From NCBI RefSeq assembly GCF_001641695.1, contig NZ_LSEF01000089.1, positions 76,395 to 140,394 on the forward strand: a DNA stretch of 64,000 nt. The letters run 5' to 3'. This document shows, in pieces, positions 22,368 through 40,377 of this stretch; position 1 is the stretch's first letter; each line of letters starts with the position of its first letter. Source of the DNA: Bradyrhizobium neotropicale (GTDB taxonomy: Bacteria > Pseudomonadota > Alphaproteobacteria > Rhizobiales > Xanthobacteraceae). Under the pieces are notes generated by a model. The model searched no databases. It worked only from the letters and a program-made list of their open reading frames with translations, and was not told where the DNA came from. Made by a program: the position numbers and the translations under genes.

Positions 22368-22403
22368 GGCGCACTGATAGGCCCTCACACCACAGGCGTG
22401 CAG

Positions 22404-24964: not shown

Positions 24965-25009
24965 CTTTTCCACCAACGATGTCTCGTCCTGTTCCTCCCG
25001 GGGTCCATC

Positions 25010-25360: not shown

Positions 25361-25511
25361 GCGCTTCCGGCCGGCGAGCCAGTCCTGGTCCCGACCAGAA
25401 ATATCGAAAAACAACCCCATGCAAAGTAGCTCGGCGGCCGTCGGACGGGGCGCGAAGCGCTTCCTTGTCGTCGACGGTCATCCATGGATCGCGTCCTCCC
25501 CGAGGGGATCT

Positions 25512-25588
25512 TGTCGCAGAAGCGCAACACCCGGTCAAATTGCGAAACCCATTCCGCCCAGTCCGTGCGCAATGCCGCCCCGCCCAAG
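25512..25588 (+). promoter_or_regulatory. 77-bp AraC-type element, copy 1
   Basis: Upstream of the outer-membrane protein gene. Half-sites TCCGCCCAG (25553) and GCCGCCCCG (25574) are 21 bp apart, and the upstream part is GTCAAATTGCGAAAC. The second half-site is the most diverged of the set. An AT-rich stretch (CATTATGCAT) about 20 bp after it could be the -10 region. Confidence 0.6.
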
Positions 25589-25712
25589 CGGGTGCACCCC
25601 TGGCCCATTATGCATGGCGAACGCGAGCGATCGCACTGAATCCGTGACGACCACCGGGCAGTGTGAGGACAAGCTCGATATGCCGCGTTGAACACTTCCT
25701 CTGAGGGCGCCA

Positions 25713-26531
25713 ATGATCCGGATGTTGCTGCGAACCATCTTCGTGTCCCCCTTCCTGCTTGGAGCCGGCGCCCATGCCGCCGATCTGGCGCTGAAGGCAC
25801 CTCCTCGTGCGATTGTCACGGCGCCTCCCTGGACGGGCTGGTATGTCGGGTTGAACGCCGGGGGTAACTGGGGCCGATCCGGTGGAGACACCTTCTATTC
25901 GTGCAGTGATCCGGATGGCGTCGGCTGCTACAGCAGCGCCGCTTATTCCGTCGCGATCAACAATCTCGGCGCCGGTCAGAGGTTCGATACGGCGGGATTT
26001 ACCGGCGGCATTCAAGGCGGCTACAACTGGCAGGCAGGAAACTGGCTGCTCGGCCTGGAAGCCGACCTCGATTATTTCCGCAGTGCCGGTTCGAGGACGG
26101 TGACCGCCGCAGCTCCGTTCTCGAACGGCACGCTGTCGCTGACATCCTCCATCAGCACCGATTGGCTCTTCACCTTCCGCCCGCGCGTTGGCGTGGTGGT
26201 CAGCAACTGGCTGTTCTACGGAACGGGCGGATTGGCCGTCAGCCAATTGAACGGCCGTTGGAGCTTCGTCCATTCCAATCCATTCGGCCCCTTCACGGAG
26301 AGCGCGTCCGCGTCGGCCGTCAAGGCAGGATGGACCGTCGGGGCCGGCTTCGAAACGATGCTCGCCGATCGCTGGACCGTCGGGGCCGAGTATCTCTACG
26401 TGAAGTTCGACGGCGTTTCGGCAACCGGCAATCTGGTCACCCCTGCGGCACTCCCACGCAACGACGCGTTCAACCATAACGCCGACCTCTCGGCCAACAT
26501 CGTCCGCTTGCGCTTGAACAAGATATTCTGA
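25713..26531 (+). CDS. Outer-membrane beta-barrel protein (Omp25/porin-like)
   Basis: A 272-residue protein with a signal peptide (residues 1-22, ending AHAAD) and an eight-stranded OmpA/Omp25-type barrel: WTGWYVGLNAGGNWG at the start, GGIQGGYNWQAGNWLLGLEAD in the middle, and GAEYLYVKFDG and IVRLRLNKIF at the end. Such proteins are abundant small surface proteins of Rhizobiales. The start is ATG 25713 or 25722. It has one copy of the 77-bp element upstream and a strong terminator downstream, so it is monocistronic. Confidence 0.85.
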   Translation: MIRMLLRTIFVSPFLLGAGAHAADLALKAPPRAIVTAPPWTGWYVGLNAGGNWGRSGGDTFYSCSDPDGVGCYSSAAYSVAINNLGAGQRFDTAGFTGGIQGGYNWQAGNWLLGLEADLDYFRSAGSRTVTAAAPFSNGTLSLTSSISTDWLFTFRPRVGVVVSNWLFYGTGGLAVSQLNGRWSFVHSNPFGPFTESASASAVKAGWTVGAGFETMLADRWTVGAEYLYVKFDGVSATGNLVTPAALPRNDAFNHNADLSANIVRLRLNKIF

Positions 26532-26563
26532 TCTGGCTTGGCGAAACCAGCAGGTAAGGCTTC

Positions 26564-26596
26564 AAAAAACCCCAGGGTGTCGCCTTGGGGTTTTTT
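26564..26596 (+). terminator. Rho-independent terminator after the outer-membrane protein gene
   Basis: AAAAAACCCC (26564-26573) pairs with GGGGTTTTTT (26587-26596) around a GC-rich middle, ending in a T run. This is the best intrinsic terminator in the window. Its symmetric A/T arms would also work from the other strand. Confidence 0.9.
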
Positions 26597-26719
26597 CTCG
26601 TCGAGAATCTTCCTGCTGCCGTACGCGGACAATAAGCGTGGAAGGACGGGTGCGCCAATTGGCGAGGCGACCGAGCGGCCATCGGTGCGACCTGCTCTCA
26701 GTCATCGCCAAGCGCCTTC

Positions 26720-26796
26720 CGTCGCAAGGATGCAACATCCGTTCGAATTGCGAAAGCAGTGCCGCCCAGTCCGCGCGGCGTACCGCCTGGCCCAAG
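26720..26796 (+). promoter_or_regulatory. 77-bp AraC-type element, copy 2
   Basis: Upstream of autotransporter 1. Half-sites GCCGCCCAG (26761) and ACCGCCTGG (26782) are 21 bp apart, ending in GCCCAAG. CTATCCATAACGG follows about 25 bp later, a possible -10 region. Confidence 0.7.
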
Positions 26797-26887
26797 CCGG
26801 CGGACCGTCTTCGCTCTATCCATAACGGTATCCGCATGGACGGGGGGCGACGCGTTGAGTCGACTGCCCCAGCGATGCTTTTGGGGA

Positions 26888-29362
26888 ATGATGATGCAGA
26901 AGACTGTTGTTGCCGTTGCCGCGATCAATGCGCGAACCGGAACGCGAGCGCGTGCCGCGATGCTGGCGACATGCTCCATGCTTGCGATCGTGGCCACGGC
27001 TGCACCGGCGCGGGCGCAGAATGCCACCTGGAATACGGCCCCCGGGAGCAACGATTACAATACCGGCGCGAACTGGACTCCTGGAACCGTGCCGACCGGC
27101 ACGGCCTTCTTCAACTTAACGACCCAACCCAACATCACAATCAGCGCGGACAGCTCCGTGGGGGGCTGGACCTTCAACACCGGCAACTACGCGTTCACGC
27201 TGGCACCAAACAAGGATCTCATTTTTACAGGCGCCGGCATCGCGGTCACGAGCGGCAGCGTTTCCATCTCTAACACCACCGGCAACCTGAATTTCCAAGG
27301 CAGCAGCACCGCGGGGACTGCTACGATCATCAACCCATGGAACCTGAATTTCCAAAACAACAGCACGGCGGGCAGTGCCACGATCACCAATAGCGGCGCC
27401 TTGGCCTTTTTTAATAACAGCACGGCAGGCAATGCTGCCATCACGAACATTGCGCATGGGCAGACGGATTTCTCCGCAACGTCCGGACCCAGCGGCAATC
27501 ACCAATTGACCGCCGGTTCTATCAACGGCGGCGGATCGTTCCTTCTTGGCAGCAACCAGTTGACGGTCGGTGGCAACGACCAGTCGACGGTGGTGTCCGG
27601 CGTGATCAGCGGGATCGGAGGTTCGCTGGTCAAGGTCGGCACCGGCACCATGCAGCTCACCGGCACAAACACGTATACCGGGGCGACCACCGTCAATGGC
27701 GGAAACCTTCAGGTCGACGGCTCGATCGCCACGTCCAGCCTGATCACGGTGAACCACGGTGGACTTGGCGGCGTGGGCACGGTCGGCAATGTGCAGGTCA
27801 ATTCGAGCGGCGCACTATACTCCGGCAGTGGCCAGCCGGGAACATCGCTCACCGTTTCCGGTAATCTCGCCCTTCAATCCGGCGCGTTCTATGCCGTTGC
27901 GGTAAATCCTTCGAGCGCTTCCTTCGTCTCGGTCTCGGGCACGGCGACACTCAACGGCGCCACGTTGGGCGCTACCTTCTTTCCCGGCAGCTATCTCAGC
28001 AAGCAGTACACGATCCTGACTGCGGCCGGCGGACGCTCCGGAACATTCGCATCGACGATAATCAACAACGGTCTACCTGCCGGCGCCCAGGAGAGCCTCA
28101 GCTATGACGCCAACCACGTCTATCTCAATCTCGCGCTGAGCTTCAGTGGGCCGTCCAACAACGGGCTCAACCAAAACCAGCGGGCGGTCGGCGACGCGCT
28201 GGTCGGCTACTTCAATTCCACCGGCGGCATTCCGATGGTCTATGCGAGCCTCTCGCCTGACGGCTTGACGCAGGCCTCGGGCGAGCACGCGACCGGGTCG
28301 CAGCAGACCACCTTTGACGCGATGGGCCAGTTCATGGGCCTGCTGACCGATCCCTTCATGCGCGACACCGGCTGTGGAGCCAATTCGGCTTCGGCTGTCG
28401 TGCGCGACCGCTGCGGCGCAAGTCCGGCGGGTGCGGCGGGGTATGCGGAAGAAGGTGCCGCAAGCGCCTATGCCATGTTCACCAAGGCGCCGCTGCGCGC
28501 GCGGCCGTTCGAGCAGCGCTGGAGCGTGTGGGCGGCGGGATATGGCGGTTCGCAGACCACCGAGGGCAACGCCATCGTCGGATCGAACCGGGCGACCAGC
28601 CGCATCTTCGGCACGGCCGTCGGTGCGGATTATCTGTTCTCGCCGAACACGCTGGCCGGCTTTGCACTGGCCGGCGGCGGCACCAATTTCGGCGTCAACG
28701 GGCTCGGCGGCGGACGCTCCGACCTGTTCCAGGCCGGCGCCTATGTGCATCACACCAGCGGCCCCGCCTATGTCACGGCCGCGCTTGCCTATGGCTGGCA
28801 GGACGTGACCACCGACCGCACCGTGACGATCGCGGGCACCGACCGTCTGCGCGCCGAGTTCAACGCCAATGCGTGGTCCGGCCGGCTCGAAGGCGGCTAC
28901 CGCTTCGTGGCGCCGTGGATCGGCGGCGTCGGGCTGACGCCTTATGCAGCCGGCCAGGTCACGAGCTTCCAGCTCCCGGCCTATGCCGAGCAGGTGATCT
29001 CGGGCGCATCGGCCTTCGCGCTCAACTATGGGGCCAAGGACGTGACCGATACGCGGACCGAGCTTGGCCTGCGCACCGACAAATCCTTTGCGCAACAGAA
29101 CGGCGTCTTGACGCTGCGCGGCCGCGTTGCCTGGGCGCATGATTTCGACCCCAATCGCGCCATCGCCGCGACCTTCCAGGCGCTGCCGGGCGCGAGCTTC
29201 GTCGTCAACGGCGCGGCGCAGGCGCGCGACTCCGCGCTCACCACCGCGTCCGCCGAAATGAAATGGCTGAACGGCTGGTCGGCAGCCGCGACCTTCGAGG
29301 GCGAGTTCTCGCAAGTCACCCGCTCCTACGCCGGCAAGGGCGTCGTGCGCTACGCGTGGTGA
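26888..29362 (+). CDS. Autotransporter (type Va) outer-membrane beta-barrel protein 1
   Basis: An 824-residue protein. Signal peptide residues 1-46 (ending PARAQ); a passenger with repeated N-STAGNAAITN-type units (residues 130-190) and a passenger-associated transport repeat (TGTMQLTGTNTYTGATTVN near residue 265); and a C-terminal autotransporter barrel of about 280 residues (RWSVWAAGYGGSQTT onward) ending VRYAW. It exports its own passenger to the cell surface, probably as an adhesin. The start is one of three consecutive ATGs at 26888. It is followed by a close paralogue. Confidence 0.9.
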   Translation: MMMQKTVVAVAAINARTGTRARAAMLATCSMLAIVATAAPARAQNATWNTAPGSNDYNTGANWTPGTVPTGTAFFNLTTQPNITISADSSVGGWTFNTGNYAFTLAPNKDLIFTGAGIAVTSGSVSISNTTGNLNFQGSSTAGTATIINPWNLNFQNNSTAGSATITNSGALAFFNNSTAGNAAITNIAHGQTDFSATSGPSGNHQLTAGSINGGGSFLLGSNQLTVGGNDQSTVVSGVISGIGGSLVKVGTGTMQLTGTNTYTGATTVNGGNLQVDGSIATSSLITVNHGGLGGVGTVGNVQVNSSGALYSGSGQPGTSLTVSGNLALQSGAFYAVAVNPSSASFVSVSGTATLNGATLGATFFPGSYLSKQYTILTAAGGRSGTFASTIINNGLPAGAQESLSYDANHVYLNLALSFSGPSNNGLNQNQRAVGDALVGYFNSTGGIPMVYASLSPDGLTQASGEHATGSQQTTFDAMGQFMGLLTDPFMRDTGCGANSASAVVRDRCGASPAGAAGYAEEGAASAYAMFTKAPLRARPFEQRWSVWAAGYGGSQTTEGNAIVGSNRATSRIFGTAVGADYLFSPNTLAGFALAGGGTNFGVNGLGGGRSDLFQAGAYVHHTSGPAYVTAALAYGWQDVTTDRTVTIAGTDRLRAEFNANAWSGRLEGGYRFVAPWIGGVGLTPYAAGQVTSFQLPAYAEQVISGASAFALNYGAKDVTDTRTELGLRTDKSFAQQNGVLTLRGRVAWAHDFDPNRAIAATFQALPGASFVVNGAAQARDSALTTASAEMKWLNGWSAAATFEGEFSQVTRSYAGKGVVRYAW

Positions 29363-29473
29363 GGGAGTGGCTACGTCCGCGATCGCATCGCGGGCGTGGC
29401 AACGAACGACCGCTTCCGGCCTTGTGTCCCTGACGCCTGATCGACTGGTGTTGAGTCTCCAAAACTCTATTCC

Positions 29474-29601
29474 GTCATTCCGGGGCCCGAGCGAAGCGAG
29501 GGAGCTATGATGCGCAATTGCGCATCTGAGAATCCATCGGGCCGCAAAGCACGTGGACGAATAGATTCCGGGCTCACCGCTTCGCGGTGCCCCGGAATGA
29601 C
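29474..29601. repeat. Terminal-inverted-repeat element, copy 1
   Basis: GTCATTCCGGGGC (29474-29486) and GCCCCGGAATGAC (29589-29601) are perfect inverted ends of a 128-bp element with an inner palindrome GATGCGCAATTGCGCATC. There is no coding capacity. It looks like a small non-autonomous element of the REP/MITE type. A related copy lies at 32447-32570 after the second autotransporter. Confidence 0.8.
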
Positions 29602-29722
29602 GCTGAAGTGAAACGCAACACTCAGCGTCGCGAGATCCTGAGCGCGACATGCCGGCTGCGCAAGAGCCCGATGCGGCCGAACCGCCATCGCGGCCCACTC
29701 TCCAGCACCGGCTGGCGTCTTT

Positions 29723-29799
29723 CGTCGCAACAATGCAACAGCCGTTCAAATTGCGAAAGCAATGCCGCGCAGTCCGCGCGGTGTGCCGCCTGGCCCAAG
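29723..29799 (+). promoter_or_regulatory. 77-bp AraC-type element, copy 3
   Basis: Upstream of autotransporter 2. Half-sites GCCGCGCAG (29764) and GCCGCCTGG (29785), 21 bp apart, are preceded by GCAACAGCCGTTCAAATT and followed by CACTATTCATGATGG, a possible -10 region. Confidence 0.72.
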
Positions 29800-29886
29800 C
29801 GGGCGCATCTTCCGCGCACTATTCATGATGGCATCCGCATGACGGGGGGCGACTCGAGTCGCCTGGCCCAGTGACGCTTTTGGGGA

Positions 29887-32358
29887 ATGATGATGCAGAA
29901 GACCGTTGTTGCCGTTGCCGCGACCACCGCGCTGACCAGAACGCTGACGCGTGCCGCGCTGCTGGCAGGAACTTCCCTGGCTGCGATCGTGGTCCTCGCC
30001 GTGCCCGCGCGGGCGCAAAATGCCGCCTGGAATACCAACCCCGCGAATAGCGACTACAACAACACCGCGAACTGGAGCACCTCCGCAGTGCCGACCGGCA
30101 CCGCGTTTTTCGGGCTCCCCTCCAGCCTGACGAATATCGCAATCAATGCGAGTAATTCTGTGGGAGGCTGGACCTTCAATGCGGGCAACTACCAGTTTAC
30201 GGTGGGAGCAGCTCCAACGACTTTCGACTTCACGGGTGCCGGCATCACCGTCAACGGCGGCAGTGCCACCATCACCAACAACGGAGGCCTGGCCTTCCGC
30301 AATAGCAGCACCGCGGGCACTGCTTCGATCATCAACAATTGGGTCGTCAACTTCGTTAACAGCAGCACGGCGGGCAACGCTAGCTTCATCAATAGCAACA
30401 CCATTGCATTTTTTAGTAACAGCACGGCGGGCAATGCCGCCATCACCAACGTCGCGCTGGCAGCGGTCACGGATTTCTCAGGTACGTCCGGACTTAGCGG
30501 CAATGGACAAGTGTCGGCTGGCTCCATCGCGGGAACCGGGATCTTTGCCCTTGGCAACAACGAATTGACCGTCGGCGGTAACAATCAGTCGACGACCGTG
30601 TCCGGCCAGATCACTGGCGGCGGTTCGCTAGTCAAGGTTGGAAGCGGCACGCTGATATTGTCGGGCGCAAATACCTACAGCGGCGTGACCACGGTCAAGA
30701 ATGGTACGCTGCAGGTCGATGGTCAGTCCGATTCAAACACAGTGGTGAATACCGGCGCGACCCTTACAGGCCAGGGGTTGATCCAGGATGTGCAGATCAA
30801 TTCCGGCGGCACGCTGGCGCCCGGCAATGGCACTCCGGGGTCGTCGCTGAGCATTTTCCTCAGTCTCGCCTTTCAGTCCGGCGCGATCTACATGGTTCAG
30901 GTGAATCCATCGGCCGCCTCCTCCGTGACAATGAACGGCACGGCGACGCTCGGCGGCGCGACGGTGAATGCCGCATTCGCTCCCGGCACCTATGTCAGCA
31001 AGCAATACACGATCCTGACCGCAAACTCCGGAATCTCCGGCACGTTTGCGCCGACTGTCGTCAACAGCAACCTGCCCGCCAACTTCCATGACAGCCTGAG
31101 CTATGACAGCAAGCACGTCTATCTCAATCTCACGCTGGGTTTCGCGCCGACGCCGGGAAGCGGGTCGCTCAATCAAAACCAGCAGGCGGTCGCCAACGCG
31201 TTGACTGGTTTCTTCAATTCCACCGGCGGCATTCCGGCGGTCTATGCCGGCCTGACGCCCGCCGGCCTGACGCAGGCCTCGGGCGAGCACGCGACCGGGT
31301 CGCAGCAGACCACCTTCAACGCGATGGGCCAGTTCATGGGCCTGCTCACCGATCCCTTCATGCGCGAGGTCGGCTGCGGCGGCAATTCGGCTGTCGTGCG
31401 CGACCGCTGCGGCGAAACTCCCGCAGGCGCGGCCGGGTATGCGGAAGAGGGTTCGGCGAACGCCTATGCCATGTTCACCAAGGCGCCGCTGCGCGCGCGC
31501 CCGTTCGAGCAGCGCTGGAGCGTGTGGGCCGCAGGATATGGCGGTTCGCAGACCACAGACGGCAACACCGTCGTCGGATCGAACCGGGCGACCAGCCGCA
31601 TCTTCGGCACGGCCGTCGGCGCGGACTATCTGTTCTCGCCGAACACGCTGGCCGGCTTTGCGCTGGCCGGCGGCGGCACCAATTTCGGCGTCAACGGGCT
31701 CGGCGGCGGTCGCTCCGACCTGTTCCAGGCCGGCGCCTATGTGCATCACACCCAAGGCCCCGCCTATGTCACGGCCGCGCTCGCCTATGGCTGGCAGGAT
31801 GTGACCACCGACCGCACCGTGACGATCGCGGGCACCGATCGTCTGCGGGCCCAGTTCAACGCCAATGCGTGGTCGGGCCGGCTAGAAGGTGGCTATCGAC
31901 TTGTGGCACCGTGGATCGGCGGCGTCGGGCTGACGCCTTATGCGGCCGGCCAGTTCACGACGTTCCAACTGCCGGGCTATGCCGAGCAGGTGATCTCCGG
32001 CGCGTCGGCCTTCGCGCTCAGCTATGGGGCGAAGGATGCGACGGACACGCGAGTCGAGCTAGGCGTGCGCACCGACAAATCCTTCGTGCAACAGGACGGC
32101 GTGTTTACACTGCGCGGCCGCGTTGCCTGGGCGCAAGACTTCAATCCGAACCGGTCGGTTGCCGCGACCTTCCAGGCGCTGCCGGGGGCGAGCTTCGTCG
32201 TCAACGGCGCGGCGCAGGCGCGCGACTCCGCGCTCACCACCGCGTCCGCCGAGATGAAATGGCTGAACGGCTGGTCGGCAGCCGCCACCTTCGAGGGCGA
32301 GTTCTCGCAGGTCACCCGCTCCTACGCCGGCAAGGGCGTGGTGCGCTACGCCTGGTGA
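29887..32358 (+). CDS. Autotransporter (type Va) outer-membrane beta-barrel protein 2
   Basis: An 823-residue paralogue of the preceding gene with the same architecture: signal peptide to about residue 43, passenger with NSSTAG repeats, a transport repeat (GTLILSGANTYSGVTTVKNG) and a C-terminal barrel almost identical to that of protein 1 (for example RWSVWAAGYGGSQTTDGNT). The passenger has diverged more than the barrel. The promoter element, coding sequence, about 100 bp after the stop and the inverted-repeat element are all duplicated, so the pair arose by segmental duplication. Confidence 0.9.
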   Translation: MMMQKTVVAVAATTALTRTLTRAALLAGTSLAAIVVLAVPARAQNAAWNTNPANSDYNNTANWSTSAVPTGTAFFGLPSSLTNIAINASNSVGGWTFNAGNYQFTVGAAPTTFDFTGAGITVNGGSATITNNGGLAFRNSSTAGTASIINNWVVNFVNSSTAGNASFINSNTIAFFSNSTAGNAAITNVALAAVTDFSGTSGLSGNGQVSAGSIAGTGIFALGNNELTVGGNNQSTTVSGQITGGGSLVKVGSGTLILSGANTYSGVTTVKNGTLQVDGQSDSNTVVNTGATLTGQGLIQDVQINSGGTLAPGNGTPGSSLSIFLSLAFQSGAIYMVQVNPSAASSVTMNGTATLGGATVNAAFAPGTYVSKQYTILTANSGISGTFAPTVVNSNLPANFHDSLSYDSKHVYLNLTLGFAPTPGSGSLNQNQQAVANALTGFFNSTGGIPAVYAGLTPAGLTQASGEHATGSQQTTFNAMGQFMGLLTDPFMREVGCGGNSAVVRDRCGETPAGAAGYAEEGSANAYAMFTKAPLRARPFEQRWSVWAAGYGGSQTTDGNTVVGSNRATSRIFGTAVGADYLFSPNTLAGFALAGGGTNFGVNGLGGGRSDLFQAGAYVHHTQGPAYVTAALAYGWQDVTTDRTVTIAGTDRLRAQFNANAWSGRLEGGYRLVAPWIGGVGLTPYAAGQFTTFQLPGYAEQVISGASAFALSYGAKDATDTRVELGVRTDKSFVQQDGVFTLRGRVAWAQDFNPNRSVAATFQALPGASFVVNGAAQARDSALTTASAEMKWLNGWSAAATFEGEFSQVTRSYAGKGVVRYAW

Positions 32359-32446
32359 GGGTGCGGCTACGTCCGCGGTCCCATCGCGGGCGTAGCAACG
32401 AACGACCGTTTCCATCGTCGAGTTTCTAACGTCTGATTCACTCAGT

Positions 32447-32570
32447 GTCATTCCGGGCGCGACGAAGTCTCGAGCTATGATGCGCAATTGCGCATCTGAG
32501 GATCTATTCATCCACTAACCCTGCGCCCGATGGATTCCGGGTTCACCGCTTCGCGGTGCCCCGGAATGAC
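32447..32570. repeat. Terminal-inverted-repeat element, copy 2
   Basis: It begins GTCATTCCGGG (32447-32457), ends GCCCCGGAATGAC (32558-32570) and has the same internal GATGCGCAATTGCGCATC. It is homologous in position to the element after autotransporter 1. Confidence 0.8.
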
Positions 32571-32627
32571 GCTGAGGCGAATTGGGCTCGGTGCCAACTT
32601 CAACGTCAAGTTCTGAGAAACGTAGCA

Positions 32628-33047
32628 ATGAACGAGCAGACTATTTCTCTGGTCCAGGAGAGTTTCAAGAAACTGGCACCAAAAGCCGATGAAGTTGGCA
32701 TGATGTTCTATGACCGCCTCTTCGAGATCTATCCCGAGGTGCGTCCCATGTTCGCGCGGGACATCGGGCCGCAATCCCGAAAGCTCGTGCAGATGCTTGC
32801 ACTCGTCGTGAACGGGCTACGGAATCTGGATTCCATCCTTCCAGCAGTCAAAGAGCTCGCGCAACGGCATCATGGCTACGGCGTCGTCGACGCACACTAT
32901 CAAGCCGTCGGTTCGACGCTGATCTGGACGCTTCGCCGTAGTCTCGGCGAGGCCTTTACGACGGAGGTTGAGCGCGCCTGGCATGATGCCTTTGAGACAC
33001 TGTCGACGGTCATGATCGAGGCGTCGAGGGAGAGACGACCGGCCTGA
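32628..33047 (+). CDS. Single-domain globin
   Basis: A 139-residue globin of the flavohaemoglobin/Vitreoscilla type: VQESFKKLAPKADEVGMMFY (helices A-B), FEIYPEVRPMF (C-E corner), and LAQRHHGYGVVDAHYQAVG with the proximal histidine of helix F. The reductase domain of flavohaemoglobins is absent. Members bind O2 or NO; this one probably handles NO or oxygen with a separate reductase. The start is ATG 32628. It lies between the autotransporter duplication and the AraC array, with no evident partner. Confidence 0.88.
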   Translation: MNEQTISLVQESFKKLAPKADEVGMMFYDRLFEIYPEVRPMFARDIGPQSRKLVQMLALVVNGLRNLDSILPAVKELAQRHHGYGVVDAHYQAVGSTLIWTLRRSLGEAFTTEVERAWHDAFETLSTVMIEASRERRPA

Positions 33048-33095
33048 TACGAAAGCACGATTTTCACGGACTGCGGGCGCGAGCCGATCGTCGAT

Positions 33096-33311
33096 ATGGA
33101 CGGTCTCCCGCGCGTCAGACGTGTCGCCATTGGGGACAGCAGGTATTTGCGCTTGTTGCAGCTTGGCGACTTTGTCCGGCGTTCGCGTGGTGGTTGGCGG
33201 TTCGGAACAAAGATCATCACCGACCAGGTCGCCGACAGGCTCATCGCCGCGGGTCGAGCGGAGGTTTGCGACGACCGCTTGCGACTCAAACGGAATGGTT
33301 GGCGCCAATAG
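33096..33311 (+). CDS. Small basic hypothetical protein
   Basis: A 71-residue basic protein (SRYLRLLQLGDFVRRSRGGW in the middle, then GTKIITDQVADRLIAAGRA). The pattern resembles small winged-helix-like proteins of Bradyrhizobium, but I cannot name a family. The ribosome site is weak, so the start is uncertain. It ends at the stop of the convergent secreted protein gene. Confidence 0.5.
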   Translation: MDGLPRVRRVAIGDSRYLRLLQLGDFVRRSRGGWRFGTKIITDQVADRLIAAGRAEVCDDRLRLKRNGWRQ

Positions 33312-33626
33312 TTACTGCCTTGCCGCCTTCGGCGCGATGCTTGTGCAGCCGACGGTCGGGCAGTTCAGGGCGAAGCCACGTGCATCGAGCCTGCAAGCTA
33401 ACACCGACTCGCCCCGATACGGGATGCCGTAACACGCGGGGTCGGCCCGGCACGCGACGACATTGCGATGGTGCCCGCAGGGATCGCCTGGCGGCGCCGC
33501 GCACCAGTCGTTGGGAGCCGTGCCGCAAATCTGCGGTGGCGTCTGCGCAAGCGCCAGCACGGCCACCAGCATGAGCGCCACCAGCACCAGAGGGGACCTG
33601 GACAGGAAAATTGCCTTTGGATTCAT
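33312..33626 (-). CDS. Secreted cysteine-rich small protein
   Basis: A 104-residue protein with a signal peptide (residues 1-29, LVLVALMLVAVLALAQ) and a mature part with eight cysteines (ICGTA, WCAAP, PCGHH, ACRAD, ACYGI, ACRLD, NCPTV, GCTSI), probably disulfide-bonded in the periplasm or outside the cell. The start is ATG 33626. No family is recognised. It is transcribed in the same direction as the AraC genes, directly after the first of them. Confidence 0.6.
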   Translation of the reverse strand: MNPKAIFLSRSPLVLVALMLVAVLALAQTPPQICGTAPNDWCAAPPGDPCGHHRNVVACRADPACYGIPYRGESVLACRLDARGFALNCPTVGCTSIAPKAARQ

Positions 33627-33653
33627 CGCACCCACCCGAACGCCGTCAGAGGA

Positions 33654-34619
33654 TCACCTTTGCTGCCGCGCGATCTCGCGCGCATCCGACGGCGTCATGC
33701 TGTAGCGCTGGCGGAAGGCGCGGTTGAAATAGGAGAGATCGCCGAAGCCGCTCTCAAAGGCGATGACGTGAATAGGGCGGTGCAGATGCCTGGGATCGGT
33801 CAGCATCTGCCAGGCGCGGGCGAGCCGCGCCTCACGCACGAAATCGGTGAAGGTCGTGCCCTCATCGGCGAAGAGCTGGCGGATGTAGCGCTCCGAGATC
33901 TGCTGGCTGGCCGCGATCTCGCCGACCGAGAGGGAGCTCTGCGTAATCCGTTGCAGGATGTCGTCCTTCAAAGCCTTCAGCCTCGCCGCGCGAAGTCCGT
34001 CGGCGAGATGCGGCTCGAGCCTGGCGCCGAACAACAGGGCCGCAAGATCGTGCATGTGCGTGCTGACGGCGCGGCGAAGCCCGGCCGTTCCGAGCACGCC
34101 ATGATCGTTCAGAGCGCGGGAATAGCCCACCAGCAGGCGAAGCGCCTGGCTATCCCCTGGAATCGGGCGGGCGACCAGATCGTCGAGATTGGGAACGTGG
34201 GGTCGCAGCAGATCCCGGCGCAAGCGATAGCTGATGGTGCGGGACGGCACCGGTATCGCAAAGCTTGCGGGGGACCCGTTCGACGACAACACGGCCTCGC
34301 CCGCGCCGATGGCCGCTACGCGGCCATTCTCGTTCAGTTCGCCCGCACCGTCTGCGAAGACGACGAGGAAGAAATCGTCGTGGTTGATGTGCTCCGCGGT
34401 GCGCCGAGTGAGCATCGGCGATCGCGATCCGCTCGCCATCGTAAAGTCCGGCAGCGAGCGAATCAGGGCATCGAAATGCAGCGGCTGGCCGTCGAGCGGC
34501 TCAATTTCGTAGCGCAGCATCTTGCGCGCCCAGACTTCGCGAAAGGCATCGAGTTGCCCGCTCGCAGCGAAGGGCGCCGAAGAGACACGCAACTGCACCA
34601 ACTCGTCGTCGTCTGCCAT
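33654..34619 (-). CDS. AraC family regulator 1 of a five-gene paralogous array
   Basis: A 321-residue regulator. The N-terminal AraC-binding-like domain spans about residues 10-185 (SSAPFAASGQLDAFREVWAR). The C-terminal AraC helix-turn-helix pair runs from about 215 to 318 (LSVGEIAASQQISERYIRQL and ESGFGDLSYFNRAFRQRYSM). It is closely related to the four that follow. Its upstream region carries the 77-bp element in the same orientation as the gene, unlike the other four. The ligand is unknown. Confidence 0.88.
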   Translation of the reverse strand: MADDDELVQLRVSSAPFAASGQLDAFREVWARKMLRYEIEPLDGQPLHFDALIRSLPDFTMASGSRSPMLTRRTAEHINHDDFFLVVFADGAGELNENGRVAAIGAGEAVLSSNGSPASFAIPVPSRTISYRLRRDLLRPHVPNLDDLVARPIPGDSQALRLLVGYSRALNDHGVLGTAGLRRAVSTHMHDLAALLFGARLEPHLADGLRAARLKALKDDILQRITQSSLSVGEIAASQQISERYIRQLFADEGTTFTDFVREARLARAWQMLTDPRHLHRPIHVIAFESGFGDLSYFNRAFRQRYSMTPSDAREIARQQR

Positions 34620-34676
34620 CCACGGCTCCAAACCTCATCCGTGGCTTCACTGGTATTCCGCGCGACGGTTCCAGCG

Positions 34677-34753
34677 CTTGGGCCAGGCGGCAATTCGGAC
34701 GGACTGGGCGGCACTACGTTTCCCAATTTGAACAGGTGTTGCTGTTGCGCGAC
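34677..34753 (-). promoter_or_regulatory. 77-bp AraC-type element, copy 4
   Basis: On the minus strand, 58 bp upstream of AraC regulator 1. Half-sites (read on the plus strand) CTGGGCGGC at 34704 and CCAGGCGGC at 34683 are 21 bp apart. This is the only copy oriented with its AraC gene. Confidence 0.7.
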
Positions 34754-34849
34754 TGACGACATCGAGCGGAATGGGCCGCTGTCGCGGCAGACCTGGCCGT
34801 CAAGGGGCCACCGCCTGCGCGATCATGCTTGGCGTCGACGTTCGGCGGG

Positions 34850-35821
34850 TCAGTCGCGGTCCGCCGCGAGCTCGCGCGCGTCCGACGGCGTCATGCCGTA
34901 GCGCTGCCGGAAGGCGCGGTTGAAGTAGGAGAGGTCGCCGAAGCCGCTCTCATAGGCGATTGCATGGATGGGGCGGCGAAGCTGAGAGGCATCGGTCAGC
35001 ATCTGCCAGGCGCGGGCGAGCCGCGCCTCGCGCACGAAATCGGTGAACGTCGTACCGTCATCGGCAAAGAGCCGGCGGATGTAGCGCTCCGAAATCTGCT
35101 GGCTGCGGGCGATCTCATCGACCGAGAGCGAGCTCTGCGCAATCCTCTGAAGGATGTCGTCCTTCAACGCCTTCAGCCGGGCAGCGCGAAGTCCACCGGT
35201 AAGGTGCGGCTCGGCCTTGCCACCGAGCAGCAGGACCGCGAGGTCGTGCATATGGGCAGTAACGGCGCGGCGAAGATCTGCCGTTGCCAGCGCGCTCTGG
35301 TCGTTCAAGACACTGGAATAGCCTGTCAGGAGGCGGAGGACCTGGCTGCCCCCGGCGATTGGGCGGATCACCAGATCGTCGAGATTGCGAATGTGGGGTC
35401 GAAGCAGATCCCGGCGAAAGCGGTAGCTGATGGTGTGGGATGACGTCGGCACCACAAAGCTTGTGGGCGTCCCGCTCGCCGACAGCAGCGTGGCCTCACC
35501 ATCGCCGAGCGACGCCACGCGACCGTGCTGGCCCAGTTCGGCCGCACCGCGCGTGACCACAAGAAGGAAAAGATCGTCGTTGTCGATGAGCTCCCTGGTG
35601 CGCCGAAGGCGCATCGGCGATCGCGATCCACTCGCTATCGCAAAGTCCGGCAGGGAGCGAAGCACGAAATCGAACTGCAACGGATGTTCATCGAGGGGCT
35701 CGATGTCGAAGCGCAGTATCCTGCGGCCATACGCTTCCCGGAAGGCATCAAGCTCTCCGCTCCTCGCATAGGGCGCCGAAGAGACCCGAAACTGTATCAG
35801 CTCGTTGTCGTCGACGGCCAT
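34850..35821 (-). CDS. AraC family regulator 2 of the array
   Basis: A 323-residue paralogue with the same two-domain plan: FRVSSAPYARSGELDAFREA at the N-terminus and LSVDEIARSQQISERYIRRL plus ESGFGDLSYFNRAFRQRYGM at the C-terminus. Like regulators 3 and 4 it carries ARSQQ in the first recognition helix, versus AASQQ in 1 and 5, which may mean slightly different DNA preferences. The start is ATG 35821. Confidence 0.88.
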   Translation of the reverse strand: MAVDDNELIQFRVSSAPYARSGELDAFREAYGRRILRFDIEPLDEHPLQFDFVLRSLPDFAIASGSRSPMRLRRTRELIDNDDLFLLVVTRGAAELGQHGRVASLGDGEATLLSASGTPTSFVVPTSSHTISYRFRRDLLRPHIRNLDDLVIRPIAGGSQVLRLLTGYSSVLNDQSALATADLRRAVTAHMHDLAVLLLGGKAEPHLTGGLRAARLKALKDDILQRIAQSSLSVDEIARSQQISERYIRRLFADDGTTFTDFVREARLARAWQMLTDASQLRRPIHAIAYESGFGDLSYFNRAFRQRYGMTPSDARELAADRD

Positions 35822-35849
35822 CCACGGCTCCGAATCTCGCGAACTATTG

Positions 35850-35925
35850 TTCGCACAACAGCAAAAGCCGTTCGACTTACAAAACGCAATACCGCCCAGT
35901 CCGTGCGCGGCGCCGCCTGGTCCGT
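35850..35925 (+). promoter_or_regulatory. 77-bp AraC-type element, copy 5 (degenerate 3' end)
   Basis: Between AraC genes 3 and 2, opposite to their direction. Half-sites ACCGCCCAG (35891) and GCCGCCTGG (35912) are 21 bp apart. The final GGCCCAAG has become GGTCCGTG, and the downstream promoter-like part is missing. Confidence 0.62.
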
Positions 35926-35942
35926 GATGGGAACGAACCGCG

Positions 35943-36911
35943 TCAGCTCTGCTGCCTCGCGAGCTCGCGCGCGTCCGACGGCGTCATGCGATAGCGCTGG
36001 CGGAAGACGCGGTTGAAATAGGAGAGATCGCCGAAGCCGCTCTCAAAGGCGATGACGTGAATAGGGCGGTGCGGATGCCTGGGATCGGTCAGCATCTGCC
36101 AGGCGCGGGCGAGCCGCGCCTCGCGCACGAAATCGGTGAAGGTCGTGCCGTCATCGGCAAAGAGCCGGCGGATGTAGCGCTCCGAAATCTGCTGACTGCG
36201 GGCAATCTCGTCGACCGAGAGAGAGCATTGCGCAATCCTTTGCAGGATGTCGTCCTTCAAGGCCTTCAGCCGGGCCGCGCGAAAACCACCGACGAGGTGC
36301 GCCTCGGCCTTGCCCCCCAGCAGCAGGGCTGCGAGCTCGTGGACATGGGTGCTGACGGCGCGGCGGAGCTCCACTGTAGCAAGCGCGCTCTGGTCGTTCA
36401 GAACACCGGAATAGCCGACCAGAAGACGGAGCGCCTGGCTGTCCCTCGCAATCGGCCGGGCGACCCGATCGTCGAGGTTGGGAATGTGGGCCCGCAGAAG
36501 ATCGCGGCTGAAGCGGTAGGTCATCGTGCGGCTGGGCACCGGGATCGCAAAATTTATAGGTGCCCCGTTGGCCGTCAGCACCGCCTCGCCATCACCAATG
36601 GTCGCCGCGCGGCCATGCTGGTTCAGCTCGCCGGCACCGCGCGCGATGGTGATCAGGAGAAGATCGTCGTTGTCGATGAGCTCTGCAGAGCGCCAGACGC
36701 GCATCGGCGATCTCGGTCCGCTCGCCATCGCGAAGTTCGGCAACGAGCGAAGCATGGCATCGAGCTGCAGCGGGTGGCTGCCCAGGGGCTCGATTTCCAT
36801 GCGGAACATCTTGCGGCCATAGGCCTCAAGAAAGGCATCAAGCTGCCCGCTCTGCGCATAGGGCGCCGAAGAGACGCGAATCTGGATCAACTCGTTGTCG
36901 TTGACTGCCAT
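35943..36911 (-). CDS. AraC family regulator 3 of the array
   Basis: A 322-residue paralogue. The start is ATG 36911, where the shared MAV/TxDNELIQ N-terminus begins; the open frame extends 8 codons upstream. Its N-terminal domain contains SSAPYAQSGQLDAFLEAYGR; the C-terminal helix-turn-helix is LSVDEIARSQQISERYIRRL with ESGFGDLSYFNRVFRQRYRM. It ends 121 bp before the start of regulator 2, leaving room for a separate promoter. Confidence 0.88.
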   Translation of the reverse strand: MAVNDNELIQIRVSSAPYAQSGQLDAFLEAYGRKMFRMEIEPLGSHPLQLDAMLRSLPNFAMASGPRSPMRVWRSAELIDNDDLLLITIARGAGELNQHGRAATIGDGEAVLTANGAPINFAIPVPSRTMTYRFSRDLLRAHIPNLDDRVARPIARDSQALRLLVGYSGVLNDQSALATVELRRAVSTHVHELAALLLGGKAEAHLVGGFRAARLKALKDDILQRIAQCSLSVDEIARSQQISERYIRRLFADDGTTFTDFVREARLARAWQMLTDPRHPHRPIHVIAFESGFGDLSYFNRVFRQRYRMTPSDARELARQQS

Positions 36912-36939
36912 CCGCGGCTCCGAATCTCGTGACAATTTT

Positions 36940-37015
36940 GTCGCACAACAGCAAAAGCCGTTCCGACTGCCAGACGCAATACCGCCCAGTCCATGGCGCA
37001 GCGTCGCCTGGTCCG
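36940..37015 (+). promoter_or_regulatory. 77-bp AraC-type element, copy 6 (degenerate)
   Basis: Just upstream of AraC regulator 3 in plus orientation. Half-sites ACCGCCCAG (36981) and GTCGCCTGG (37003) have 22-bp spacing, one more than the usual 21. Confidence 0.6.
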
Positions 37016-37032
37016 TGATGGGAACGAACGCA

Positions 37033-37998
37033 TCAGTTTTGACGCCGCGCTACCGCCCGCGCGTCCGAGGGCGTCATGTCGAAGCGCCGGCGGAAGGCGC
37101 GATTGAAGTAGGAGAGATCGGCAAAGCCGCTCTCATAGGCGATCGCATGAATCGGCCGGTAATGCTGAGAGGCATCGGTCAACATCCGCCAGGCGCGGGC
37201 AAGCCGCGCCTCGCGCACGAAATCGGTGAACGTCGTCCCGTCATCGGCGAGGAGCCGGCGGATGTAGCGTTCCGAGATCTGCTGGCTGCGGGCGATCTCA
37301 TCGACCGAGAGAGTGCCCTGCCCAATCCTCTGAAGGATGTCGTCCTTCAACGCCTTCAGACGAGCCGCACGAAGTCCACTGGTAAGGTGCGGCTCGGCCT
37401 TGCCACCGAGCAGCAGGACTGCGAGGTCGTGCATGTGGGCGGTGATGGCGCGGCGAAGATCGGCCGTTGCCAGCGCGTTCTGGTCGTTCAAGACACCGGA
37501 ATAGCCTGTCAGGAGGCGAAGGACTTGGTTGCCGCCTGCGATTGGGCGGATCACCAGATCGTCGAGATTGCGAATGTGGGGTCGAAGCAGATCGCGGGAA
37601 AAACGGTAGGTGATGGTTTGGGATGACGTCGGTATCACAAAGCTTGCGGGCGCCCCGTTCATCAGCGCGGCCCCACCATCGCCGAGCGCCGCCACGCGAC
37701 CATGCTGGCCCAGTTCGCCCGCACCGCGCGCGACCGCAACGAGTAAAATATCGTCGTTGTCGACAAGCTCCCGGGTGCGCCAAATGCGCATCGGCGATCG
37801 CGATCCACTCGCCATCGCAAAGTTCGGCAGCGAGCGAAGCACGAAATCGAACTGCAACGGATGTTCATCGAGGGGCTCGATGTCGAAGCGCAGTATCCTG
37901 CGGCCATACGCTTCCCGGAACGCATCAAGCTCTCCGCTCTTCGCATACGGCACCGAAGAGACGCGAAACTGAATCAACTCGTTATCGTCGACCGTCAT
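37033..37998 (-). CDS. AraC family regulator 4 of the array
   Basis: A 321-residue paralogue, ATG 37998. It is most similar to regulator 2 through most of its length (FRVSSVPYAKSGELDAFREA, and shared central segments) but resembles regulator 5 at the C-terminal helix (ESGFADLSYFNRAFRRRFDM). This mixture suggests gene conversion within the array. Confidence 0.88.
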   Translation of the reverse strand: MTVDDNELIQFRVSSVPYAKSGELDAFREAYGRRILRFDIEPLDEHPLQFDFVLRSLPNFAMASGSRSPMRIWRTRELVDNDDILLVAVARGAGELGQHGRVAALGDGGAALMNGAPASFVIPTSSQTITYRFSRDLLRPHIRNLDDLVIRPIAGGNQVLRLLTGYSGVLNDQNALATADLRRAITAHMHDLAVLLLGGKAEPHLTSGLRAARLKALKDDILQRIGQGTLSVDEIARSQQISERYIRRLLADDGTTFTDFVREARLARAWRMLTDASQHYRPIHAIAYESGFADLSYFNRAFRRRFDMTPSDARAVARRQN

Positions 37999-38024
37999 CC
38001 ACGGCTCCGAATCTCGCGAACTAT

Positions 38025-38101
38025 TGGTCGCGCGACAGCAAAAGCCGTTCGACTTGCCAAACGCAATACCGCCCAGTCCGTGGCGCAGTGCCGCCTGGTC
38101 C
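38025..38101 (+). promoter_or_regulatory. 77-bp AraC-type element, copy 7 (degenerate)
   Basis: Just upstream of AraC regulator 4 in plus orientation. Half-sites ACCGCCCAG (38068) and GCCGCCTGG (38090), 22-bp spacing; the terminal GGCCCAAG is again GGTCCGTG. Confidence 0.6.
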
Positions 38102-38119
38102 GTGATGGGAACGAACGCA

Positions 38120-39088
38120 TCAGTTTTGACGTCGCGCTACCGCCCGCGCGTCCGACGGCGTCATGTCGAAGCGCCGGCGGAAGACGCGGTTGAAGTAGGA
38201 GAGATCGGCAAAGCCGCTCTCATAGGCGATCGCATGAATCGGCCGGTGAAGCTGAGCGGCATCGGTCAGCATCCGCCAGGCGCGGGCAAGCCGCGCCTCG
38301 CGCACGAAATCGGTGAACGTCGTCTCTTCGCCGGCAAAGAGCTGGCGGATGTAGCGCTCCGAAATCTGCTGGCTGGCCGCGATCTCATCGACCGAGAGCG
38401 AGCTCTGCGCAATCCTTTGCAGGATGTCGTCCTTGAGCGCTTTCAGCCGGGCCGCGCGAAGGCCATCGGACGACTGCGCTTCGAGCTTGCCGTCCAGCAG
38501 CAGGACGGCCAGTTCGTGCATGTGCGTGCTGACGGCACGACGAAGCTCCGCTGTCGTGAGCGCGCTCTGATCGCTGAGAACGCCGGAATAGCCAACGATG
38601 AGACGCAGCGCCTGTCTATCCCTTGCGATCGGCCGGGCCACCAGATCGTCGAGATTGGGGATGCGCGGCCGTAAGAGATCCCGGCTGAAGCGGTAGGTGA
38701 TGGTACGGCTTGGTGTCGGCATCGCAAAGGTCGCGGGCGTGCCGTTGGCCGACAGCACGGCGTCGCCCTCGCCGAGGGCCACCACGCGGCCATGCTGGCG
38801 CAGCTCGCCGGCGCCGCCCGTCATCACGATCAGGAGGATATCGTCATGGTCGATGAGCTCCGCGGTACGATGAACACGCATCGGTGATCTCGGTCCGCTC
38901 GCCATCGCGAAGTTCGGCAGCGAGCGAAGCATGGCATCGATCCGGAGCGGATGACCGCCAAGGGGCTCGATCTCCATCCGCAGCATCTTGCGGCCCCAGA
39001 CCTCCAGGAAGGCGTCGAGCTGCCCGCTCTCGGCAAACGGCGCCGAAGAGAGGCGAAACTGCATCAGTTCGTCGTTGTCGTGCGCCAT
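38120..39088 (-). CDS. AraC family regulator 5 of the array
   Basis: A 322-residue paralogue at the right end of the array, divergent from the YadA-like adhesin gene. N-terminus FRLSSAPFAESGQLDAFLEV; C-terminus LSVDEIAASQQISERYIRQL and ESGFADLSYFNRVFRRRFDM. I took ATG 39088; the frame continues about 106 codons upstream through the promoter element with non-coding composition. Its position makes it the best candidate for direct control of the adhesin. Confidence 0.88.
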   Translation of the reverse strand: MAHDNDELMQFRLSSAPFAESGQLDAFLEVWGRKMLRMEIEPLGGHPLRIDAMLRSLPNFAMASGPRSPMRVHRTAELIDHDDILLIVMTGGAGELRQHGRVVALGEGDAVLSANGTPATFAMPTPSRTITYRFSRDLLRPRIPNLDDLVARPIARDRQALRLIVGYSGVLSDQSALTTAELRRAVSTHMHELAVLLLDGKLEAQSSDGLRAARLKALKDDILQRIAQSSLSVDEIAASQQISERYIRQLFAGEETTFTDFVREARLARAWRMLTDAAQLHRPIHAIAYESGFADLSYFNRVFRRRFDMTPSDARAVARRQN

Positions 39089-39119
39089 CGCGTGTCCGAA
39101 CCTCAAAGGTGGCCAATTT

Positions 39120-39196
39120 GTCGCACATCCGCAACAGCCGTTCAAATTTTGAAACGCTGTGCCGCCCAGTCCGCGCGCTGTGCCGCCTGGCCCAAG
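39120..39196 (+). promoter_or_regulatory. 77-bp AraC-type element, copy 8
   Basis: In the divergent region between AraC regulator 5 and the YadA-like gene, pointing to the adhesin. Half-sites GCCGCCCAG (39161) and GCCGCCTGG (39182) are 21 bp apart. It has the intact GCAACAGCCGTTCAAATT and GGCCCAAG, and GTAGATATTGATGG follows at the distance of a -10 region. Confidence 0.72.
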
Positions 39197-39322
39197 CGCG
39201 GAAAACCCGACCCGGTAGATATTGATGGCATCGGCGAACCGGCTCCGCACTTGGGGCGGAGCTGCCGATGAACAGGTCTTTTGGCCCATGTCGCACTTTC
39301 CGCGTGGGCCTCGCGGGAGCAG

Positions 39323-40375
39323 ATGATGAATTTGGCGGCAGGCGCAATCTCGGCAGGCTTTGGCGGATCTGGGCGAGGACGAGGCGGCGGTAACGCACGC
39401 CTGCACACGCGGGCCAGATTGCTCGCCGTCGTATGCGCCTTGTTGGCCGCGCCAATGCTCATCCCGTCGGCGGCGTATGCCGTCGAATGCGTTAACGGCG
39501 GTGCCGGCGGAGCTTCGGCGGGGTCTGATTTTGGCATTGCGAATAGTACAGCCTGCGGTAACGTCGCTAGCGCGAACGGCCAGGCCAGCACTGCGTTCGG
39601 TTATCTCGCAGGCGCCGGCGGAGACTCGAGCGTCGCTATCGGCGCGCAGAGCTCCTCGCAGGGCACGGGCGGCGTCGCAATCGGCCCATCCAGTACCGCT
39701 AGTGGCTACTCCAGCACCGCGACCGGCCCAGGTAGCACGGCGAGAGGCAGCTATTCGAGCGCGTTCGGTTTTGGCTCGACCGCAACCGGCAACGAATCCA
39801 CTGCGCTCGGTGTCAATGCGCAGGCGTCCGGTGCCAACTCCATTGCCATTGGCGGCAATCAGGCAACAGCTCCCGGCAACGCCGCCTTCGCCAGCGGCAC
39901 CAACGCCATTGCCATCGGCAATGGCGCGCAGGCACCCGCGGCTAACTCGGTCGCGATCGGGTCGGGCTCGGTCGCATCCGCGCCGAACACGGTGTCGTTC
40001 GGCTCGTCCGGTAACGAGCGGCGGCTGACCAATGTTGCCGCGGGCATCGCGCCGACCGATGCGGTGAACGTCTCCCAGCTCAACAGCTTCGCGAGCGGGT
40101 GGACGGCCGGATTGCAGAACCAGATCAACACCAACCAGACCGAGGCGCGCGCCGGCATCGCGCTGGCGCTCGCCTCGAGCGCCCTTCAGTACGATCCCCG
40201 CCCCGGCAAACTCTCGGTCGCCGCCGCGGTCGGCAATTTCCGGGGCCAGAGCGCGCTGGCCTCCGGCCTCGGCTACGCCATCAGCAGCCAGTGGCGCGTG
40301 AACGCCTCGTTCACCGCCACGCCGCAGGTCAACCAGTATGGCGCCGCGATCGGCAGCTCCTGGACGCTGAATTGA
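39323..40375 (+). CDS. YadA-like trimeric autotransporter adhesin
   Basis: A 350-residue type Vc autotransporter. It has an extended signal peptide to about residue 55 (LLAVVCALLAAPMLIPSAAY), then a head of many degenerate repeats of the type SxAIGxxxxAxGxxS (for example GDSSVAIGAQSSSQGTGGVA), the head-stalk neck (ERRLTNVAAGIAPTDAVNVS), a short coiled coil and a four-strand membrane anchor (YDPRPGKLSVAAAVGNFRGQ to the end). The short stalk is unusual. ATG 39323 has GGGAG 5 bp upstream. It probably mediates attachment. Confidence 0.9.
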   Translation: MMNLAAGAISAGFGGSGRGRGGGNARLHTRARLLAVVCALLAAPMLIPSAAYAVECVNGGAGGASAGSDFGIANSTACGNVASANGQASTAFGYLAGAGGDSSVAIGAQSSSQGTGGVAIGPSSTASGYSSTATGPGSTARGSYSSAFGFGSTATGNESTALGVNAQASGANSIAIGGNQATAPGNAAFASGTNAIAIGNGAQAPAANSVAIGSGSVASAPNTVSFGSSGNERRLTNVAAGIAPTDAVNVSQLNSFASGWTAGLQNQINTNQTEARAGIALALASSALQYDPRPGKLSVAAAVGNFRGQSALASGLGYAISSQWRVNASFTATPQVNQYGAAIGSSWTLN

Positions 40376-40377
40376 CG

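Follow-up and report, generated by a model that had tools for sequence, protein, structure and literature searches.

A candidate XylS-like operator-promoter shared by surface-protein genes and an AraC array in Bradyrhizobium neotropicale

Introduction

Among described operators of AraC-family regulators, those of XylS and CphR come closest to the element reported here. As far as the passages of PMC5481539 go, XylS at the Pm promoter has two 15-bp direct repeats, each with an A box at its 5' end and a B box at its 3' end, and a title cited in the same source indicates that the sites of XylS and RNA polymerase overlap at Pm. At cphA2A1 of Rhodococcus, the passages of PMC6205950 place CphR at imperfect direct repeats spanning -35 to -49 and -55 to -69, 20 bp apart. 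We analyzed a 64,000-nucleotide stretch of Bradyrhizobium neotropicale contig NZ_LSEF01000089.1 (hereafter the window, with positions counted from its first letter), in which eight copies of an element of 76-78 bp lie among genes for surface proteins and an array of five AraC-family paralogues.

The element shares its paired direct repeats with XylS/Pm, and the cluster shares with CphR a regulator gene placed beside the target (passages of PMC6205950). The boxes differ: TGCA and GGTA at Pm (PMC5481539) and TGCA-N6-GGNTA for CphR (PMC6205950), compared with a consensus of TGnCG and CCAAG here, and on this ground an XylS/CphR operator proper, defined by TGCA and GGNTA, was rejected. The described systems also serve aromatic catabolism (XylS) and a catabolic target (CphR), and the passages of PMC5481539 contain no distal inverted repeat such as the one found here. 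The geometry of the operator is of a known type; what sets this variant apart is its boxes, its association with surface barrels in several genera, the array of five regulators and the inverted repeat on the distal side. Our search of the literature on AraC regulators with Bradyrhizobium surface genes or autotransporters, which covered titles and the openings of abstracts and left subscription journals mostly outside its scope, returned no description of such a system.

Results

All eight copies reported in an earlier note on this DNA were extracted from the window at the places given there, and its reading of the half-site spacing, 21 bp in six copies and 22 bp in two (E6 and E7), was borne out. 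Two direct-repeat half-sites, here P1 and P2, lying about two helical turns apart are the arrangement of an operator for an AraC/XylS-type class II activator. The aligned copies are invariant in 37 of 78 columns. A pattern search with the 18-base core GCAACAGCCGTTCAAATT, allowing up to three mismatches, found seven places in the window compared with 0.03 expected, which rules out a chance origin; the exact core occurs in only two copies (29735 and 39131), and E6 lies outside the seven matches. Together with the distribution and anatomy described below, these features lead us to propose, with a probability of roughly 0.84, that the element is an XylS-like composite operator-promoter via which this AraC clade activates surface proteins.

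Five copies (E1-E4 and E8) are intact, meaning that P2 and a -10-like box are kept and that the copy is directed at a gene, and three (E5-E7) are degenerate. The extracted copies and their parts are as follows, the bit score being that of model R2, introduced below.

25513-25588, plus strand: element copy E1
25512-25529, plus strand: distal box D of E1, TGTCGCAGAAGCGCAACA, exact TGT-N12-ACA
25552-25588, plus strand: half-sites of E1 (P1 25552-25567, P2 25573-25588), 21 bp apart, 55.6 bits with R2
25608-25615, plus strand: -10-like box of E1, TTATGCAT, at the position conserved across 39 elements
26721-26796, plus strand: element copy E2
26720-26737, plus strand: distal box D of E2, CGT replacing TGT
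26760-26796, plus strand: half-sites P1/P2 of E2, spacing 21 bp
26816-26823, plus strand: -10-like box of E2, CTATCCAT, from the 39-element alignment and copy inspection
29724-29799, plus strand: element copy E3
29723-29740, plus strand: distal box D of E3, CGT replacing TGT
29763-29799, plus strand: half-sites P1/P2 of E3, spacing 21 bp
29819-29826, plus strand: -10-like box of E3, CTATTCAT, from the 39-element alignment and copy inspection
34677-34753, minus strand: element copy E4
34737-34754, minus strand: distal box D of E4, AGT replacing TGT
34677-34713, minus strand: half-sites of E4 (P1 34698-34713, P2 34677-34692), spacing 21 bp
34650-34657, minus strand: -10-like box of E4, AATACCAG, weak
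35849-35926, plus strand: degenerate copy E5 (P1 35890-35905, P2 35911-35926), extracted as 35850-35926, directed away from AraC2
36939-37017, plus strand: degenerate copy E6, extracted as 36940-37017, directed away from AraC3, spacing 22 bp
38026-38104, plus strand: degenerate copy E7, extracted as 38027-38104, directed away from AraC4, spacing 22 bp
39120-39196, plus strand: element copy E8
39119-39136, plus strand: distal box D of E8, TGTCGCACATCCGCAACA, exact TGT-N12-ACA
39160-39196, plus strand: half-sites of E8 (P1 39160-39175, P2 39181-39196), 21 bp apart
39216-39223, plus strand: -10-like box of E8, TAGATATT, weak

A -10-like sequence of the form TATnCA follows E1, E2 and E3, a weaker one follows E4 and E8, and E5-E7 have none. 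The claim that copies ahead of surface genes keep the 3' end and a -10-like sequence holds for E1-E3 and less strongly for E8, but E4, which precedes AraC1, keeps its 3' end as well. The companion claim, that the copies at AraC genes 2-4 have lost the 3' end, is right as to the missing -10 but understates the loss. E5-E7 share damage in the right arm of box D (GCAACA to GCAAAA), in P1 (TGCCG to TACCG) and in P2 (CCAAG to CCGTG, within GTCCGTG), where the remaining copies mostly retain GCAACA, TGCCG and CCAAG, and they sit between AraC genes, each directed away from the gene at whose start it lies.

The eight copies are not eight independent events, as E2 and E3 were carried by a 3 kb duplication of autotransporter genes and E5-E8 by the duplication of 1.09 kb AraC units. 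When the AraC3 unit is compared with those of AraC2 and AraC4, the first 60 columns, which hold P1 and P2, are 93-95% identical, the next 60 are 75-77% identical and the third 60, covering early codons, are 85-88% identical. The greater likeness of the half-site stretch of E5-E7 suggests either that some constraint remains or that a short tract was exchanged, and these copies may take part in autoregulation or titration.

We searched 265 genomes of the genus with a model (R1) built from the eight copies alone. In its own genome of 8.67 Mb it gave eight matches of 69-80 bits, all inside the 14 kb cluster, and the element is therefore no scattered repeat. This was the genome-wide profile search that the earlier note had called for, and the random scatter it had named as a refutation did not appear. 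Beyond the own genome, matches of at least 24 bits occurred only in three genomes (G078, G016 and G202), where the elements lie in AraC/autotransporter/YadA/barrel loci; all others scored below 23 bits.

More distant relatives clarify the anatomy of the element. There the half-sites resolve into two clean direct repeats of the P1/P2 consensus TGnCGnCCAGnCCAAG, spaced by 21 or 22 bp. This spacing (21 and 22 bp being the two that were scanned) is retained even where the AraC proteins of the relatives share 30-55% identity. When the window and 32 other AraC neighborhoods (494,558 bases, overlapping registers counted, L087 omitted) were scanned for tandem half-sites, 41 matches had a score of at least 23 of 31, compared with none in reversed sequence, and 59 compared with eight had a score of at least 22. 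From 55 places at the latter score, a set of 39 elements (A4) was drawn up by dropping 13 judged to be non-promoters (inside genes or without an upstream box), omitting L086 1281, L023, L106 and two L099 places (near copies of L098), and adding E5 and L085 5689 by hand. Ten genes ahead of elements were chosen for Pfam and comprise six PF13505 barrels, three PF03797 autotransporters and one gene without a family. By coordinates, L098, L099 and L112 have forward-directed elements before AraC genes, like E4.

The alignment used for the -10 also has 39 elements and differs from A4 in that E5-E7 are out and L086 1281, L023 and L106 are in. Aligned on P2, these elements have an almost invariant CCAAG and a second information peak at +21 to +23, with TA starting at +20, +21 and +22 in 9, 14 and 10 of the 39 (one sequence may count twice). 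The peak has the look of a -10 box; the corresponding -35 would overlap CCAAG. A proximal half-site over the -35, with a predicted -10 at a fixed distance, is the layout of a class II operator, and a cognate-type AraC/XylS protein with a helix-turn-helix (HTH) domain is encoded nearby, as such an operator would have it. The copies, their spacing and restriction to the cluster, their conservation and gene association in relatives and the position of the -10 were all computed directly.

The model of the 39 elements (R2) returned nine matches in the own genome, namely the eight copies and a ninth, diverged element (G000:C89:200383-200464; L097 7384-7467, minus strand) between an outer-membrane barrel gene, which it precedes, and a 40% identical AraC paralogue. 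Freer tests are given by R1 and by held-out places, among which the mirror copies of G016, G016 1281 and two G024 matches were not counted. Within the genus, 13 of 18 held-out places precede a surface gene or AraC: five autotransporters, four barrels, three YadA-type genes and one AraC fragment. The barrel at L153, cut by the contig end, scores 28.4 bits, just below the cut-off of 28.7, and the YadA-type assignment at L156 comes from its own reading frame and tblastn. In three genomes (G164, G116 and G139) a second element precedes an autotransporter, and the 11 kb read around it contain no AraC relative. This is what a trans-acting regulon predicts, as regulation there would have to act in trans.

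A family search of 391 genomes, with a model trained only within the genus, found 14 places in five other genera. Twelve precede barrels (by tblastn with the window barrel; one also by Pfam) and one an autotransporter, in four genera. An AraC relative lies within 10.5 kb at 13 of the 14 places, and AraC and surface gene are both present at 12. Applied to 40 random 10-kb pieces drawn from five of these genomes, the same search yielded one AraC match and no surface-gene match; this control supersedes an earlier rough background of 0.03 AraC genes per 10.5 kb. The proposal of a single AraC-linked regulon of surface proteins, with binding inferred, gains support from these places outside model building: in the genus, 13 of 18 lie ahead of a surface gene or AraC, and in other genera 13 of 14 lie ahead of a surface gene, vs 0 of 40 random pieces with a surface-gene match. 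Matches upstream of other surface genes were thus found both in the genus and beyond it.

In contig C445 of G016 (L086 and L087), the element matches at both ends mirror each other over at least several kb, and one AraC copy there carries a stop codon. The mirrored ends are either an assembly artefact or a real inverted duplication.

Upstream of P1 by 39-42 bp lies an imperfect inverted repeat, TGT-N12-ACA (fuller form TGTSGC-N6-GCMACA), which we call box D. The exact form is present in 24 of 39 elements and 20 of 24 held-out ones, compared with none in reversed sequence, the held-out figure being partly by construction because the model contained box D and eight of 32 places went uncounted. 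Those omitted were L157-L160, the three false places and L181, most of whose model matches end before the end of P2. Spacers of other lengths from 8 to 17 gave at most one (of 39) and four (of 24) exact boxes. In the window only E1 and E8 (two of eight) have the exact box. Two points of the earlier reading call for amendment: box D is separate from the half-site part of the element, and E5-E7 are degenerate.

Several identities considered for box D found no support. PpsR/CrtJ binds TGT-N12-ACA, and no PpsR scored above cut-off in the own genome (best 37.1 bits vs 275.4). For a third direct AraC half-site, the elements' own half-sites match the upstream 60 nucleotides barely better than shuffles (8.97 vs 8.59 matches in 39 elements, 8.71 vs 8.64 in 24 held-out ones), with a modest pile-up of the best upstream match at 40-41 bp (11 of 39). 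Nor does the distal TTCAAATT serve solely as promoter of a divergent AraC gene, since slightly altered forms of it persist in E1-E4 and at a G016 place (L088 10989), none of which has a divergent AraC gene beside it.

The genes of the cluster are the following.

25713-26531, plus strand: outer-membrane beta-barrel protein (PF13505), proposed target of E1
26888-29362, plus strand: autotransporter 1 (PF03797 with PATR; Pfam input from 26885), proposed target of E2
29887-32358, plus strand: autotransporter 2 (PF03797 with PATR), proposed target of E3
33654-34619, minus strand: AraC1 (PF14525 and PF12833), proposed target of the forward copy E4 (autoregulation)
34850-35821, minus strand: AraC2, by Pfam and alignment
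35943-36911, minus strand: AraC3, by Pfam and alignment
37033-37998, minus strand: AraC4, by full-length alignment with the other paralogues, no Pfam scan
38120-39088, minus strand: AraC5, by Pfam, divergent from the YadA-like gene
39323-40375, plus strand: YadA-type trimeric autotransporter adhesin, by Pfam, proposed target of E8, which is placed between it and AraC5

PF14525, PF12833 and PF00165 matched in all four AraC proteins tested. Their best-scoring NCBIfam models are RhrA (100-122 bits vs a cut-off of 500) and FeaR (93-106 bits vs 199), and with both below cut-off the proteins are not members of either equivalog. FeaR recognizes TGNCA-N8-AAA, a site that a literature search did not confirm and that resembles TGnCG-N8-AAG here. 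The model TIGR04094, by its name an AraC-family transcriptional regulator of YSIRK-targeted surface antigens, reached 26-34 bits against a cut-off of 200, over the HTH part only.

Among the five paralogues, identity is 64-86% over the sensor part and 76-89% over the HTH part. All five, and eight aligned relatives (50-78% identity), have the same DLSYFNR stretch in the second HTH, which by its position we take to lie in the second recognition helix. In nine of ten paralogue pairs the HTH part shows the lower synonymous difference (means 0.28 vs 0.40); between genomes it is less reduced (0.44 vs 0.50 and 0.48 vs 0.52), a pattern that no more than hints at gene exchange among the HTH halves of paralogues. 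AraC proteins at 67-71% identity occur in other genomes only in G078 and G016, the next being at most 55% identical. In a tree, AraC1 and the AraC2/AraC4 pair group with separate G078 relatives with strong support, and AraC5 with weaker support; the array thus seems to predate the split from the G078 species, its members having been kept.

Discussion

We propose that two subunits of an AraC-family protein bind P1 and P2 next to each other, both on one face of the DNA. P2 would end in CCAAG over the -35 position, with the -10-like box about 20 bp later, so that the bound dimer would replace the missing -35 and recruit RNA polymerase by class II activation, the proximal subunit at the -35 bringing it to the -10 box. 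The cluster's five AraC_binding_2/HTH_18 paralogues would serve as regulators, with the barrel protein, both autotransporters, the YadA-like adhesin and AraC1 as targets. E5-E7 would be leftovers of the duplication of an AraC gene together with its operator, with no gene ahead of them. Binding, the paralogue responsible, activation and the signal are what we infer from the computed features.

Several observations weigh against this proposal. Activation rather than repression is argued from geometry only, the -10 boxes of E4 and E8 are weak, and gene duplication inflates the likeness among window copies. Five of the 18 genus held-out matches are false or unclear (three and two); the false ones (L161, L162 and L163) lie inside ABC-transporter ATPase genes, recognized by Walker and LSGGQ motifs with no Pfam run, at the LSGGQ signature region. 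An AraC match was present in the stretch read at 12 of the 18 places, two of them false places with partial matches, and absent at six, and this association is partly by construction because R2 was built from AraC neighborhoods; the held-out places were themselves chosen by likeness to the model. In other genera, one of the 14 places precedes a TctC transport receptor (in the fifth genus) and one has no AraC gene nearby. Finally, the genus and family searches used strict filters, and weak matches were lost.

Four other explanations were weighed. The element could be the operator of another regulator, with the AraC genes merely members of its regulon and the AraC-like half-sites coincidental, as might be argued from box D, an inverted repeat not obviously usable by an AraC protein that binds direct repeats, and from AraC genes being themselves targets (E4; L098, L099 and L112). 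We think this unlikely, given the XylS-like geometry of P1 and P2 and an AraC relative near 13 of 14 places in other genera but only one of 40 random pieces. That the copies are mere by-products of gene duplication, alike by descent and without function, draws on the duplicated units carrying E2/E3 and E5-E8 and on the common damage of E5-E7 at conserved positions. Yet E1, E2/E3, E4 and E8 precede different kinds of genes; the likeness of E1 to E2/E3, or of E4 to E8, covers 85-104 bp, that is, the element and its -10 region; the half-site columns of the AraC units are more alike than their surroundings; and the spacing persists in relatives with distant AraC proteins. The held-out places largely refute this account, which we consider quite unlikely.

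The surface genes might instead have a structured leader RNA or a riboswitch in their 5' untranslated region: the element is conserved, upstream and 77 nucleotides long, and some copies fold. The four copies tested fold no better than shuffles (z -1.1 to +1.7), no Rfam match reached the gathering score in 25000-40500, and a -10 is conserved downstream of the element, making an RNA leader highly improbable. Least plausible of all, with a probability close to nil, is a dispersed repeat or mobile element of the MITE, REP or BOX kind: several similar copies do lie close by, one of them inverted, but all eight fall in one cluster of an 8.67 Mb genome, their position and direction are fixed relative to surface genes, and the many dispersed copies of a mobile repeat family were absent from the genome search.

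An extension of the operator-promoter proposal, which we put forward tentatively and regard as rather doubtful, is a device with many inputs and one operator, in which the five paralogues, with diverged sensors and nearly the same recognition helices, would compete for one operator, gene exchange would keep their DNA-binding halves alike, and a second, dimeric regulator would act at TGT-N12-ACA. If so, different signals would act on the same coat of surface proteins. The array would in any case offer a way to ask how bacteria multiply sensors with one output. For Bradyrhizobium, the element supplies a concrete candidate operator and a candidate regulon that takes in autotransporters, YadA-like adhesins and outer-membrane barrels; its reach extends beyond the genus, to barrels and one autotransporter in four other genera and to a transport-receptor gene in a fifth. 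The distal inverted repeat adds a conserved putative control site.

Further genes were noted in and around the cluster. The stretch that separates the autotransporters from the AraC array holds a gene for a single-domain globin (PF00042; 32628-33047, plus strand). The YadA-like adhesin is followed downstream by a LuxR-type regulator that carries an autoinducer-binding domain (PF03472 and PF00196; 40956-41684, plus strand, scanned from 40854) and is a possible quorum-sensing input to the surface cluster. Upstream of the cluster, a reverse transcriptase (RVT_1; 22311-23771, plus strand) is flanked by a resolvase-type recombinase and a Fic protein (21025-21708 and 24152-24832, both plus strand). 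With the NCBIfam group II reverse transcriptase model below cut-off, it also matches the PADLOC RT and RT_UG17 models, and the region is possibly a mobile or defence island.

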